Shown: positions 39,222 to 44,152 of the stretch, piece after piece | How the letters are laid out: each line of letters opens with the position of its first letter | Numbering within the stretch: position 1 is the first letter of the stretch | NCBI GenBank assembly: GCA_945787015.1 | Contig: CALZGM010000011.1 | Span: 33,461-97,460 of the forward strand | DNA length: 64,000 nt | Direction: 5' to 3' | DNA from: an uncultured Roseburia sp. | GTDB taxonomy: Bacteria; Bacillota; Clostridia; Lachnospirales; Lachnospiraceae | Translations under genes and position numbers: made by a program | The notes under the pieces: model-generated | The model's database searches: none | What the model was told of the DNA's origin: nothing | What the model saw: the letters and a program-made list of their open reading frames with translations, nothing else

Positions 39222-40619
39222 CTAAGAAATCCGTAAGCCCTTGGGATAATGATTCTTTAATATGTTTCCGGCAAGTTTTCCCCATCCAACACTGTAACCG
39301 TCTGCTGTAATCAGGTACCATCCTTTTTCTCCTTCATAAGAAAGCGTTTGTCCATTTAAATATGCCCTTATCTCCTGACTATCAGCTGAAAAGTGAATCA
39401 CATGCTTTGCAGCTTCCTCATGTATTGCCAAAGCGAATGCATGGGAGGGTTCAAAGCGATTCTTTTTCATTGTTCCAAGATGTAAGCCGGGACGTAAAAC
39501 TTTCATTCCCTTTAAAGACGGCATATCTTTTGGAATCAGATAAAGTTGGTCTCCGAATTTCATTTTATTTCCTTGCGGTATTTCATTCAGATTTTCTTTG
39601 CAAAAATCCATAAATTCCTTATACTCACCCGGGGCAATTCCCTTCTCGGGTGCATTTTTACAATATCCGGTATCATCCGGTGACAGATCTCCTGCTTTTT
39701 TTAAAACAGCAAGATAATGTCCTTCACCCTTTAATTTATGAGGCCATAACCGAATTGTTTTTGAAATTTTTTCATGATAGATATCAAAATCCGTTATCTG
39801 TTCCTCTCGATACCACTCCAGGCGACCCGCCGTCATTCCGTCATATTTCATTACTTCCACTGTATCAAAATCGTTATGATGTTTTAGGAAACGGTAAATG
39901 CTGCCCTCATTCTCGGCAGGTGCAAACGTACAGGTAGAGTAAACGATACGCCCGCCCGGTTTTAGCATACCTGCGGCAAGGTCCAGAATCTCATCCTGCC
40001 TTTCTTTACAAAGTTTCACATTCAAAGGGCTCCATTCCTCACAGGCATCCTCATTTTTACGAAACATTCCTTCTCCTGAACACGGAGCATCTACTAAGAT
40101 TTTATCAAAGTAATGTACAAAAAGTTCCGCAAGATGTACCGGTGTCTCATTCAGAACCACTGCATTTTTAATTCCAAGGCGCTCTATATTCTCAGACAAT
40201 ATTTTCGCTCTGGCAGGATGAATTTCATTACAAATAAGCATTCCTTTCCCCTGCATATAGGCAGCAATCTGAGTTGATTTTCCCCCAGGCGCTGCACATA
40301 AGTCAAGCACCCGTTCTCCCGGTTTTACGTCCAGATATTCCACCGGTGCCATCGCACTGGGTTCCTGAATATAATACACCCCCGCTGCGTGGTAGGGGTG
40401 CTTGCCCGGGGTATCTGCGCTTTTATAATAAAATCCGTTTGAACACCATGGCACTTCTTCCAAAGAAAACCTTGTCTGTTTTAGGAATTTCTCATTTTCT
40501 ACCTTTAATGAGTTAATACGAAGTGCCTGGTGATTAGGACTTTCATAGCTTTGTTCAAATTCCTCATATTCACTGCCCAGCATATCTTTCATACGGCAGA
40601 TAAATTCCTGTGGTAACAT
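39222..40619 (-). CDS. RsmB/NOP-family RNA (cytosine-5) methyltransferase, RsmF-like
   Basis: This 465-residue enzyme transfers a methyl group from S-adenosylmethionine to C5 of a cytosine in RNA. The family motifs are complete: LDLCAAPGGKST (SAM site), DAPCSGEGMFRK with a catalytic cysteine, and YSTCTFAPAENEG with the second cysteine. The C-terminal extension with a PUA-like RNA-binding region (DGYSVGWGKLAGNILKNHYP) resembles RsmF and YebU. The start follows the GTPase-NYN gene stop by three bases, so the two are cotranscribed. rRNA is the likely target but is not shown. Confidence 0.88.
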   Translation of the reverse strand: MLPQEFICRMKDMLGSEYEEFEQSYESPNHQALRINSLKVENEKFLKQTRFSLEEVPWCSNGFYYKSADTPGKHPYHAAGVYYIQEPSAMAPVEYLDVKPGERVLDLCAAPGGKSTQIAAYMQGKGMLICNEIHPARAKILSENIERLGIKNAVVLNETPVHLAELFVHYFDKILVDAPCSGEGMFRKNEDACEEWSPLNVKLCKERQDEILDLAAGMLKPGGRIVYSTCTFAPAENEGSIYRFLKHHNDFDTVEVMKYDGMTAGRLEWYREEQITDFDIYHEKISKTIRLWPHKLKGEGHYLAVLKKAGDLSPDDTGYCKNAPEKGIAPGEYKEFMDFCKENLNEIPQGNKMKFGDQLYLIPKDMPSLKGMKVLRPGLHLGTMKKNRFEPSHAFALAIHEEAAKHVIHFSADSQEIRAYLNGQTLSYEGEKGWYLITADGYSVGWGKLAGNILKNHYPKGLRIS

Positions 40620-40622
40620 ATG

Positions 40623-43268
40623 TTATGCCTCCTCATCTGTCTGTTTTAATGCAGCAAGTGTTTCTTCATCTGCTGCATCCAATAAATAATGATGCACCTT
40701 TTCCTGTGTCTGTACCATTGTCTCGCGAAGTTCATCGTTGGCATTTTGAATATCCGCCTCCAGTTCTCTTGCAGACATCAGAAAACATCCCTGTCCACGG
40801 ATGATAATCTGTTCAAGCCCATCGGAGGTTGCAACCGTCACATGATATTTTCTTCCATTTTCATGCGCAAATTTTTCAATAAATGCATCCGCTGTTTCTG
40901 CTTCTTTCGTATATACCACATGAATGTTATGGTAATCATATAATTCCGTTTTATGACCTGCCACACGATATGCATCAAAGACAACAATGAGATTCCATTT
41001 TCGTATTCCCTGATAGTTAGACAACATATCCAATAGTTTTCCTCTGGCAGCATCCACATTTCTCTCCGCCAGTTCTCTCAACTTTGGAAAAGCAAAGATG
41101 ATATTATAGCCATCTACAAGTAAATATTTATCTTTTAACTCCTTCTTCTGTGAAACAAAAACAGTAGAGGACTCCTTTTGAATTACTTTCTTCGTTTTCC
41201 ACTTCTTCACCCCATCTTTATCATGTGAATTGGAGCGATAAGTACGATTCATGATTTCATCAATCTCATCCGCACCGATAGAAATCTCCTGTATCTTCTG
41301 TTTTGTACTAAGGGAAGGCATTCCCTTATCTGTGGAAGCATCTCTTCCTCTGCCAAGCAGCCTGCCCGGAAGATGCATATATTCTTTCACCAGATTCCAT
41401 TCCACTACAAAGCCTGCACCATGAGCACAAAAAACAGAATCTGCCGAATTCTTCGTATCATGCAAAGGATCATAACCAATCCGGGTACACACTTCCTCTG
41501 TATTATGGCAGGTTTTATAACCGCCAACAGTCAAGGTAAGTCTACCCTCCCCTTTTGAATAAGCTGTTACTTCCTTCTGATAATTTTGCATGCAGGCTAC
41601 CGGAGCACTTCCAAGCAGTACGCACTTCTCTCCTTCGTGAAAAGGACCTGTTACCTTACCATACATTTTCTCGATGTCTGTCATAGCCCTCCCGACAAGC
41701 ATCTGTGGCAGTTCTAAGCGGAAATCATAGTATGGTTCTAAAAGCACAGACTGTGCCTGCATCAATCCTTGTCTGACAGCACGATAAGTGGCTTGTCTGA
41801 AATCACCGCCTTCAGTGTGTTTTGTATGGGCTCTTCCTGCAATCAATGTCATTTTTATATCCGTTATTTCAGAACCGGTTAATACCCCTATATGTTGTTT
41901 TTCTTCTAAATGAGTCAGTATCAGGCGCTGCCAGTTTTTTGCCAGTTCATCTTCGCTACAATCCAAGCAAAACTGCATTCCACTTCCCGGTTCCCCCGGT
42001 TCAAGCAGCAAATGTACCTCTGCATAATGACGCAATGGCTCAAAATGTCCAACCCCTTCTACTATATTTGCAATTGTTTCCTTATAAACAATATTGCCCG
42101 TTCCAAAAGTAATAGTAACACCAAAACGCTCTGCTACCATTCTTTGAATAATTTCAATCTGCACTTCCCCCATAATCTGTGCATGAATCTCCTGTAACGC
42201 TTCATTCCATAATATATGAAGCTCCGGTTCCTCTTCCTCTAGCATTCTAAGCTTTGGAAGCATTAATGCAGGTGCCACATCCTCAGGCAATATAATTTTA
42301 TAACTTAATACCGGCTCTAACATCGGTAGCGGCGAAGGTTTTTCAACCCCAGCCGTCATGCCCGGCATCGAATGCTCCATTCCAATAACCGCACATACCA
42401 TTCCTGCTTCTGCCTCTGAAACTGTTTCATATCTGCTTCCTGAATACACGCGGATCTGGCTGATTTTCTCTTCTCCAATGACATCCCTGACTCTAAGAGT
42501 TCCCCCTGTTATTTTTAAATAGGTAAGCCTTACATTCTGTTCATCCCTGGCAATTTTAAAAACCTTCGCACCAAACGCATCTCCATATTCCGGAATACTT
42601 ACAAAGCGATAAAAGCCCTCTAGAAATTCTGCTACTCCTGTCAATTTCAGTGCAGAGCCAAAATAGCATGGATAGATGAAACGATTTTTTATTAAGTCGC
42701 GAATTTGCTCATCCAAAAGCTTCCCTGTTTCTAAAAAAGTATCCATGGCAGTTTCTTCCGCCATTGCCGCCTCTTCATAAAAACCGGTGCTGTCCGTTAT
42801 CGTAAAATCGATACAGTCACTTGATAGTTTCCTCTTTATTTCTGTTAACAGAGCTTCCTTCTCGCATCCGTGCTGATCCATTTTATTAATGAACAAAAAT
42901 ACCGGTATCTCATAACGTTTCAGGAGTCGCCATAATGTCTTCGCATGTGCCTGTACACCATCTGCTCCGTTAATCACTAAAATTGCATAATCAAGCACTT
43001 GTAAGGTTCGTTCCATTTCCGAAGAAAAATCCACATGACCCGGTGTATCTAACAGTGTTAGTTCCAAATCTTTATAAGAAAATACCGCCTGTTTCGAAAA
43101 AATAGTAATTCCTCTCTCTTTTTCCATCCGGTTCGTATCTAAATAGGCATCCTGATTATCTACTCTGCCCATTTTGCGGATTTTTCCACTACTATATAAT
43201 AATCCCTCTGATAAAGTTGTCTTTCCGGCGTCAACATGCGCCAATATGCCAACTACAATTCTTTTCAT
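40623..43268 (-). CDS. Tet(M)-like ribosomal GTPase fused to a C-terminal NYN nuclease domain
   Basis: The 881-residue protein is an EF-G/Tet(M)-type translation GTPase through about residue 640. It has G1 AHVDAGKTT (10-18), G3 DTPGH (74-78), G4 NKMD (128-131), and domains IV-V like Tet(M) (LLEPYYDFRLELPQMLVGRA). A basic linker follows, then a NYN domain from about 713 to 850 (LLVDGYNIIFAFP, VVFDAYRVAGH, ETADAFIEKF, VATSDGLEQ). The acidic residues D719, D765, D794 and D816 are those expected for a PIN-like nuclease. NYN proteins include YacP/Rae1, which cleaves mRNA in the ribosomal A site. The protein thus joins a ribosome-binding GTPase to a nuclease; role unknown. It is cotranscribed with an RNA methyltransferase. 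Confidence 0.92.
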   Translation of the reverse strand: MKRIVVGILAHVDAGKTTLSEGLLYSSGKIRKMGRVDNQDAYLDTNRMEKERGITIFSKQAVFSYKDLELTLLDTPGHVDFSSEMERTLQVLDYAILVINGADGVQAHAKTLWRLLKRYEIPVFLFINKMDQHGCEKEALLTEIKRKLSSDCIDFTITDSTGFYEEAAMAEETAMDTFLETGKLLDEQIRDLIKNRFIYPCYFGSALKLTGVAEFLEGFYRFVSIPEYGDAFGAKVFKIARDEQNVRLTYLKITGGTLRVRDVIGEEKISQIRVYSGSRYETVSEAEAGMVCAVIGMEHSMPGMTAGVEKPSPLPMLEPVLSYKIILPEDVAPALMLPKLRMLEEEEPELHILWNEALQEIHAQIMGEVQIEIIQRMVAERFGVTITFGTGNIVYKETIANIVEGVGHFEPLRHYAEVHLLLEPGEPGSGMQFCLDCSEDELAKNWQRLILTHLEEKQHIGVLTGSEITDIKMTLIAGRAHTKHTEGGDFRQATYRAVRQGLMQAQSVLLEPYYDFRLELPQMLVGRAMTDIEKMYGKVTGPFHEGEKCVLLGSAPVACMQNYQKEVTAYSKGEGRLTLTVGGYKTCHNTEEVCTRIGYDPLHDTKNSADSVFCAHGAGFVVEWNLVKEYMHLPGRLLGRGRDASTDKGMPSLSTKQKIQEISIGADEIDEIMNRTYRSNSHDKDGVKKWKTKKVIQKESSTVFVSQKKELKDKYLLVDGYNIIFAFPKLRELAERNVDAARGKLLDMLSNYQGIRKWNLIVVFDAYRVAGHKTELYDYHNIHVVYTKEAETADAFIEKFAHENGRKYHVTVATSDGLEQIIIRGQGCFLMSARELEADIQNANDELRETMVQTQEKVHHYLLDAADEETLAALKQTDEEA

Positions 43269-43337
43269 GTATCAACCTAATCTTTCTTAACTGATTTTAT
43301 TGATTTTATCATATTGTTGGATAAAAAGAAAGATTCA

Positions 43338-43365
43338 GCAGCGGAAAGCTTCTACCTTCCACTGC
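43338..43365 (-). terminator. Terminator after the cell-wall hydrolase gene
   Basis: GCAGTGGAAG and CTTTCCGCTGC pair with one mismatch on the minus strand. TGAATCTTTCTTTTT follows. It separates the hydrolase gene from the GTPase-NYN gene. Confidence 0.7.
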
Positions 43366-43374
43366 CAAATCTCC

Positions 43375-43959
43375 CTAAAAGCAAAAATAATGATGTTCAA
43401 TCTTTACATCCAAATCAGATGTCAATTTTGAAGTCGCAAAATATACGGTATCATCCCTTAAGATATCAGTTTGTCCACTTAGCACCTCATATATAGCATT
43501 ATATTCTTTCTCTGTAGGTACTGCGGTATCTCTATGCTTCCATGAAGCAAATTGTACCGGTTTCTTCTGACTTAACACTTCATAAAGAGTGTCCGGAAAT
43601 TCTTCCGATACCATACGGTTAAAAACGACCTCCACAATTGCTTTCTGTCCTTCTTCTGACTCTCCGCGGGCTTCCACCCAGAGAATTTTTGCTAATAAAT
43701 CAATCTCCTCCTCGGTCAATTCGATTTCCCAGCGGTTATCAAATTCTGTATCTTCAACCCCTAATGTTACAAATGCAACGTTTTTTCTTTCAAATCCTGT
43801 CTTTTCATCTGATTCTGTCGTAAATGATTTCTCTGAAACTTCCGCAAATATGCCTTTATCGTCTCTTGCTGATACTGCAGCAGCACGTTCTCCGTTTCCC
43901 TGATAATGGAAGGAAACCAGCAGACAACCTATTATGGCAACTGTCTGTGTTATGTTCAT
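43375..43959 (-). CDS. Cell wall hydrolase, SleB/CwlJ-like
   Basis: The 194-residue protein has an N-terminal hydrophobic segment that could be a signal or anchor, a charged linker, and a Hydrolase_2 (SleB-type) domain from about residue 80: LLAKILWVEARGESEEGQKA with the catalytic glutamate in EARGE, and EVVFNRMVSE. Such enzymes cut spore cortex or vegetative peptidoglycan. The C-terminus is short (KIEHHYFCF), as usual. The start at 43957-43959 follows AGGAGAAAAATGAG. It lies outside any evident sporulation cluster, so its timing is unknown. Confidence 0.82.
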   Translation of the reverse strand: MNITQTVAIIGCLLVSFHYQGNGERAAAVSARDDKGIFAEVSEKSFTTESDEKTGFERKNVAFVTLGVEDTEFDNRWEIELTEEEIDLLAKILWVEARGESEEGQKAIVEVVFNRMVSEEFPDTLYEVLSQKKPVQFASWKHRDTAVPTEKEYNAIYEVLSGQTDILRDDTVYFATSKLTSDLDVKIEHHYFCF

Positions 43960-44152
43960 GTTCTCATTTTTCTCCTTTCCTCAAGAATGATACACACATC
44001 TTACTGATTTTTTATCAAAAGTCAAATTTATCGGAAAGGAAGAAAATGGTTATTTTTGCCACCATTTTACCAGTTTTTCATAAGGTTAAAGCAACTTTGT
44101 CTACTTTTAATCTAGTTATATCTTTCATACATTAAATCGTGAAAGAGCATTT

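Follow-up and report, generated by a model that had tools for sequence, protein, structure and literature searches.

A Tet/EF-G-type translational GTPase fused to a Rae1-type NYN nuclease takes the place of stand-alone Rae1 in most sampled genomes of one bacterial family

We analysed a stretch of 64,000 nucleotides from an uncultured Roseburia sp. (contig CALZGM010000011.1, positions 33,461 to 97,460; hereafter the window), in which a single gene encodes a translational GTPase of the Tet/EF-G type joined to a NYN nuclease of the Rae1/YacP type. This fusion is real, conserved and of single origin, and in most of the genomes sampled from the window's family (f1 in our samples, which we take to be Lachnospiraceae) it has taken over from stand-alone Rae1. 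On balance we lean towards regarding the protein as a GTPase-delivered ribosomal mRNA nuclease, that is, as the cell's Rae1, the endonuclease that cleaves A-site mRNA on paused ribosomes, built into a docking GTPase of the Tet/EF-G type. Most relatives that carry record names are Lachnospiraceae, Roseburia or Eubacterium, and the closest of them, a Roseburia metagenome-assembled genome (locus L005), is 89% identical. Coordinates of all features are collected in Table 1.

An earlier note on this DNA, made from the letters alone, had proposed a Tet(M)/EF-G-like GTPase with a C-terminal NYN domain, and both the Pfam and the PDB matches bear this out. Pfam finds GTP_EFTU at residues 4-221 (2.7e-50), EF-G domain II at 234-298 (28.3 bits against a cut-off of 27), a weak domain III that falls under its own cut-off, EFG_IV at 392-506 (1.1e-17), EFG_C at 508-589 (9.2e-16) and NYN_YacP at 716-877 (3.5e-50; 170.7 bits against a cut-off of 24.6). 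The best PDB matches of residues 1-594 are Tet(O) and Tet(M) chains (6.6e-74 and 1e-71), and those of the NYN part are the Bacillus subtilis YacP/Rae1 structures 5mq8 and 5mq9 (2.9e-23). The four acidic residues that the note had picked out (D719, D765, D794 and D816) are all present at those positions in the translated sequence. The note had also proposed looking for the fusion in other genomes, and there the same four aspartates are invariant, both in 32 of 32 full-length fused proteins (the window and 31 of 38 relative loci, the seven partial or frame-broken loci being excluded) and, in a larger set, in all 63 fused NYN domains and all 30 separate ones (the frame-broken fusion L032 having been dropped). 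The loss of acidic residues that the note had named as a refuting outcome is thus not observed. The catalytic histidine of the GTPase is kept in 56/56 fused proteins, with the P-loop, G3 and G4 motifs in nearly all, as judged by the four commonest forms. An assembly artefact is ruled out, since the fusion recurs in many genomes, some of them single-contig, and the NYN part is under purifying selection: its ratio of non-synonymous to synonymous substitution rates (dN/dS) is 0.06-0.14, against 0.08-0.10 for the GTPase (three of five pairs, those with usable dS). At 0.25-0.30 in three pairs, the linker is under weaker constraint than either.

To determine how the fusion is distributed, an order-wide sample of 245 genomes, each at least 90% complete, was searched with NYN_YacP and with a profile of the fusion's GTPase. 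A NYN_YacP match is present in 226 of them (92%), and 99 carry the fusion, 96 with a reading frame of at least 840 amino acids and three with one broken by a contig end or a frame change. In all 99 the NYN match lies inside the GTPase frame or, in the three broken cases, beside it. Forty-six of these genomes were searched individually, and every one has one NYN match, in a frame of 848-1004 amino acids; across the 99, the match is single in 95. Genome G256 is fused too, yet its diverged GTPase falls under the threshold of the GTPase profile search. Within f1 the fusion is found in 65 of 72 genomes, and in the window's own genome it is the only NYN_YacP match. The same GTPase subfamily occurs unfused in 27 genomes (those of G058, G198 and G251 being partial or frame-broken; G116, whose GTPase is cut by a contig end and in which no NYN was seen, was excluded). 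Each of the 27 also has a separate NYN frame, 171-226 amino acids long, which is not remarkable alone, given that 92% of all 245 genomes have a NYN match. A phylum-wide sample of 159 genomes, sharing G000 and G060 with the first, gave NYN matches in 91, of which 11 are fused; GTPases of the subfamily scoring above 900 bits are found only in the same 11, and in G304 and G342 there is a Tet-like match at about 450 bits. Where Rae1 has been characterised, it makes mRNAs less stable, and this effect depends on translation (PMC6613710). The earlier note's suggestion of a role at the ribosome is strengthened by this distribution, because what the fusion replaces, in 95 of 99 fused genomes, is a stand-alone nuclease that is itself ribosome-dependent.

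The place that stand-alone rae1 has vacated can be recognised. In related genomes rae1 lies between rlmB and sigH; ahead of these come cysS and a gene that we take to be mrnC (for which a profile check gave no match to MrnC), and spoVB or thyX sometimes intervenes. The names RlmB, CysS, SigH and ThyX were checked and score above their curated cut-offs, and SpoVB scores only under its own. In B. subtilis, rae1 is co-transcribed with the rlmB homologue yacO (PMC6613710). Stand-alone rae1 has other neighbours in two unfused genomes (G197 and G122). We viewed the rlmB locus in 45 chosen genomes, comprising 42 fused genomes without intact Rae1, two with both forms and one unfused. None of the 42 has an intact rae1 in the 0.5-1.5 kb of sequence available downstream of rlmB, and 32 have sigH in that stretch; in the window's genome sigH starts 26 nucleotides after rlmB, with no rae1 between. 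Two fused genomes retain a remnant of the stand-alone gene between rlmB and sigH. In G084 (L091:5766-6109) it consists of pieces that align with residues 2-114 and 140-173 of Rae1 from the congeneric G166, with a stop, and in G055 (L103:1318-1404) of one piece matching the first 29 residues. Such remnants look like free rae1 genes in decay since the fusion replaced them.

Trees were built from thinned alignments (66 of 93 rows, then 58, for the NYN domain; 52 of 74, then 45, for the GTPase), and the diverged protein of locus L093 was excluded from the GTPase trees and from the 58-row NYN tree. In a GTPase tree rooted on five Tet-like GTPases, all fused rows fall into one clade (99/99, 28 of 45 rows, with the bootstrap flagged as not settled), which gives the fused GTPase a single origin. 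The nearest unfused relative, L081 of genome G090 (also recorded as L131), lies just outside this clade; it ends soon after the domain V extension and could be either an unfused sister or a case of early nuclease loss. The NYN tree needs three changes between fused and separate forms, with or without the long branches, and does not reject a single fused NYN clade (approximately unbiased test, p-AU 0.357). Several independent fusions were considered and set aside, the NYN tree being weak and the GTPase tree giving one clade. Eight fusions from families f2, f21, f24, f30, f74 and f85 and from Anaerobacterium, some of them outside the order, fall into one nested group (100/98.9), to which the two remnant genomes also belong; another f2 member, G104, is placed elsewhere in the GTPase tree. 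From its place in the tree, we read the nested group of other-family fusions as probable horizontal spread.

The nuclease has changed at its C-terminus. The end of stand-alone Rae1 is basic and carries an LRR, MRR or WRR motif, and the pattern [LIMVW]R[RKL] is found within the last 13 residues of 28 of 29 stand-alone proteins, against four of 34 fused ones in the thinned set; with a looser pattern the counts are 27/29 and 11/60. The window protein is among those lacking the motif. The tail after the nuclease core is 30-37 residues long in all 30 stand-alone proteins, compared with 10 residues or fewer in 14 of 60 fused ones, and the mean net charge of core plus tail is −6.7 in fused against about +1.1 in stand-alone domains. 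The second arginine of the motif is R166 of B. subtilis Rae1, if the numbering of the chain is native, and R166P is among the loss-of-function suppressors of an efp mutant (PMC6613710). The simplest reading of the loss would be that a NYN domain which reaches the ribosome with the GTPase can do without an anchor of its own, and we infer that the GTPase has taken over the targeting of the nuclease.

What kind of GTPase this is bears on a different reading, in which the protein is a drug-protection factor whose GTPase, like Tet(M), dislodges an antibiotic of the tetracycline type from the decoding centre, with the nuclease either removing the stalled mRNA or altering the response. GTPases of the Tet type occupy a position over the A site (PMC8161019), and the closest solved relatives of the fusion are Tet(O) and Tet(M). 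Its loop III at the domain IV tip aligns with that of TetM without a gap, YYSPVST in TetM becoming AHTKHTE in the fusion. The changed tip does not exclude drug protection, because a TetM triple mutant (S508A/P509A/V510A) is still functional (PMC4750697). On the other side, the fusion scores 417.9 bits against the NCBIfam tet_protect cut-off of 775, and the position of TetM Pro-509, which sits in the tetracycline site (PMC8161019), is occupied by Lys483. That lysine is invariant, along with A480, H481, H484 and T485, across the 32 aligned fused proteins. His481 aligns with the tip histidine of the EF-G-like proteins of the same genome, which holds three EFG_IV proteins, two of them EF-G-like and the third the fusion. 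In the most diverged fusions the histidine is gone (L074 and L076) or the whole motif is (L093). The tip predates the fusion, because most unfused relatives examined have a similar one (L061 with Glu for Lys); the SVFCxHGAG extension of domain V is likewise largely common to unfused relatives. Eight fused genomes (G107, G137, G170, G215, G253, G257, G266 and G281) hold a second Tet-like GTPase gene, so tetracycline resistance in these genomes need not come from the fusion. Judged by these sequence features, the GTPase of the fusion is not a standard Tet protein. With its presence in 65 of the 72 sampled f1 genomes and no conserved neighbour among four genes tested also counting against drug protection, we consider that reading unlikely. 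A recent resistance gene on a mobile element is not favoured either, on the same two observations; mobile-element genes were not searched for. Three further loci (L126, L127 and L128, of G116, G101 and G161) encode Tet-like GTPases of another sort, in which the domain IV tip reads H-x-x-HTHPLDF.

How might such a nuclease be delivered by its GTPase? Docking at the ribosome we infer from homology to Tet proteins and EF-G, and mRNA as the substrate is our best guess by analogy with Rae1. An AlphaFold2 model built with the 32-row alignment (mean predicted local distance difference test score, pLDDT, 75.6; predicted template modelling score, pTM, 0.58) gives folded GTPase domains and a moderately confident NYN domain, joined by a linker of pLDDT about 30 with a short helix at residues 666-679. 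EF-G structures come first when the model is searched with Foldseek (E 2.9e-49), at low template modelling scores (0.31-0.45) because the domains are arranged differently. The linker is predicted to be disordered, so the nuclease would not be held in one place. A motif within it, E-[IVL]-[DELQH]-x-I, is found in 54 of 63 fused linkers, compared with 1.3 expected in shuffled linkers, and the unfused relatives compared end before it. Judged by eye, the motif may correspond to the C-terminal helix of Tet(M). In the scheme we propose, the GTP form would dock at the factor-binding site of a ribosome with an empty or stalled A site and would place domain IV in the decoding centre. Hydrolysis of GTP would then pull domain IV out, and the nuclease on its flexible linker could enter the emptied A site, on the same ribosome or a neighbouring one, and cut the A-site mRNA once the GTPase has left. 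Domain IV and the NYN domain should act in turn, or the NYN domain on another ribosome, because Tet-type factors and Rae1 are both described as A-site occupants. We thus tentatively picture a GTP-gated nuclease, in which the GTPase reads the paused ribosome and leaves after hydrolysis and the tethered Rae1 cuts; it would have a single origin, would have reached other orders of the phylum and would have rendered free Rae1 redundant, leaving decayed remnants. We regard this full account as possible, and hold it less firmly than delivery of the nuclease as such.

Several observations weigh against a nuclease delivered and gated in this way. Two genomes, G148 and G166, carry the fusion beside an intact 177-amino-acid Rae1, so replacement was not immediate. 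Fused GTPases are more acidic as well (−29.8, against −20.5 in unfused ones, over about 640 residues), and a pairwise tree test of the motif loss yields two to three independent contrasts, with which a sign test cannot reach significance. The nuclease appears in the model as a tethered domain whose position the model (pTM 0.58) does not fix, and we are not aware of any fused member whose activity or binding to the ribosome has been measured. Finally, the fused protein of G256 (L093:4674-7460) has a GTPase that scores 321 bits, where the closest fusions reach about 1100, and a badly diverged tip, and its NYN aspartates are intact, so that the two parts can drift apart; this GTPase may be losing its original function. 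The same protein would suit two independent housekeeping activities on one chain, linked by co-expression only, with a nuclease that the GTPase does not direct. A flexible, fast-evolving linker with no fixed arrangement agrees with that idea, as does the coexistence of unfused GTPase and separate Rae1 in 27/27 genomes with the unfused form. Such independence is nevertheless quite improbable in our view, given that the fused form is mostly without the stand-alone C-terminal motif, that the linker motif is so widely kept, and that renewed separation is not seen, the nearest unfused relative lying just outside the fused clade.

If the delivered nuclease is the right reading, a translational GTPase with a built-in nuclease exists in most sampled members of one family, and a GTP-driven factor may now decide when a message is cut. 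The ribosome-binding mode of Tet(M) and EF-G is well understood; to our knowledge, what brings Rae1 to paused ribosomes, and which ribosome states are cut, is poorly known. The genetics are clean, the only Rae1 of 95 of the 99 fused genomes residing in one gene, and natural controls are at hand: relatives in which GTPase and Rae1 are separate proteins, genomes that carry the fusion as well as free Rae1, and those in which the stand-alone copy is decaying. The case is also a warning for similarity-based annotation of such genes as tetracycline resistance.

Around the fusion gene itself (Table 1), little is conserved. The earlier note had pointed to an rRNA-type cytosine methyltransferase in the same operon; such a neighbour is indeed present 3 nucleotides downstream, where it is of the RsmF type, but a conserved operon is not, as RsmF lies within 2.5 kb of the fusion in only five of 49 other loci with at least 2.5 kb of downstream sequence (directly in L005, L012 and L018; after about 1.6 kb in L014 and L037). 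In L075 it lies 4.7 kb ahead of the fusion's end. These counts rule out the methyltransferase operon as a general functional clue. They also bear on the idea that the nuclease acts on rRNA or tRNA, in maturation or ribosome quality control, in place of mRNA. NYN proteins have been proposed to mature rRNA and tRNA (as quoted in PMC4342817), the window's neighbour is a 16S rRNA methyltransferase, and in several genomes the gene ahead of stand-alone rae1 is rlmB, which encodes a 23S rRNA methyltransferase; set against the scarcity of the RsmF link and the translation-dependent destabilisation of mRNAs by characterised Rae1 (PMC6613710), this substrate seems very improbable. No conserved neighbour of the fusion was found among the four neighbour genes tested; the cell-wall hydrolase is near the fusion in L005 and L012 too. 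The hairpin upstream is read, from its sequence, as a probable terminator of the upstream gene, so the fusion may have a transcript start of its own; the stretch 43200-44000 gave no Rfam match. None of the PADLOC anti-phage defence models matched the fusion at E 1e-5. The RsmF-type methyltransferase matches PADLOC mad2 (4.5e-29), probably a mere reflection of the common methyltransferase fold.

Table 1. Features of the fusion gene and its surroundings, in positions of the window.
Feature	Position	Strand	Basis
Fusion gene, 881 aa, ATG start: translational GTPase (Tet/EF-G type) + NYN nuclease (Rae1/YacP type)	40623..43268	(-)	
GTPase part, residues 1-589, domains G, G', II, III, IV, V	41502..43268	(-)	Pfam; phmmer Tet(O)/Tet(M); Foldseek EF-G
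Domain IV loop III, residues 480-490, AHTKHTEGGDF	41799..41831	(-)	Alignments with TetM and the genome's own EF-Gs
Domain V C-terminal extension, residues 590-632, SVFCxHGAG motif	41373..41501	(-)	Alignments
Linker, residues 639-711, predicted disordered, fast-evolving	41136..41354	(-)	pLDDT about 30; dN/dS 0.25-0.30
Conserved linker motif, residues 666-679 (ADEIDEIMNRTYRS), low-confidence predicted helix	41232..41273	(-)	Shuffle test; model
NYN_YacP nuclease domain, residues 716-877, D719, D765, D794, D816	40638..41123	(-)	Pfam; PDB match; alignments
C-terminal tail, residues 851-881, acidic, without the LRR/MRR motif of stand-alone Rae1	40626..40718	(-)	
RsmF-type 16S rRNA 5-methylcytosine (m5C) methyltransferase, 3 nt downstream of the fusion	39222..40619	(-)	
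Terminator-like hairpin between the upstream cell-wall hydrolase gene and the fusion	43328..43375	(-)	Consensus scan only
Small cell-wall hydrolase (Hydrolase_2, weak SleB-type match), upstream	43375-43959		

The earlier note had taken the fusion to be undescribed, which is not so. Tet proteins with a YacP-like NYN RNase domain were noted in ten Clostridiales species, with the suggestion of resistance via RNase activity (Atkinson 2015; PMC4342817), and the fusion was therefore already known. We recognised no other publication treating a GTPase-NYN fusion, in a literature search that was not exhaustive. The proteins of Atkinson 2015 have the same architecture and very probably belong to the same family. 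The difference lies in what is made of them, as resistance is proposed there, and Rae1 replacement, origin, locus loss and the C-terminal motif are not treated in the passages of that paper on these proteins. The strongest new points, in our view, are that Rae1 has been replaced, leaving remnants where it ancestrally stood, and that the C-terminal motif has been lost. With Tet(M) and Tet(O) the fusion has in common its domain order and GTPase motifs, in keeping with the best PDB matches. It differs in reaching only about half the curated tet_protect score, in the change from Pro-509 to Lys483 at the tip, in its long extension and nuclease, and in standing apart from the five Tet-like outgroup rows. 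EF-G has a like fold, by Foldseek, and a histidine at the same position of the domain IV tip; here the differences are that the window's genome has two EF-G-like genes besides, and that the tip of the fusion, KHTEGGDF, is not that of EF-G. Closest to the nuclease is B. subtilis Rae1/YacP (PF05991; 5mq8, 5mq9), of the same NYN family, with the same four acidic residues and, as a rule, one match per genome, whereas the nuclease described here is joined to a GTPase, is absent from between rlmB and sigH, mostly lacks the LRR motif and is more acidic.

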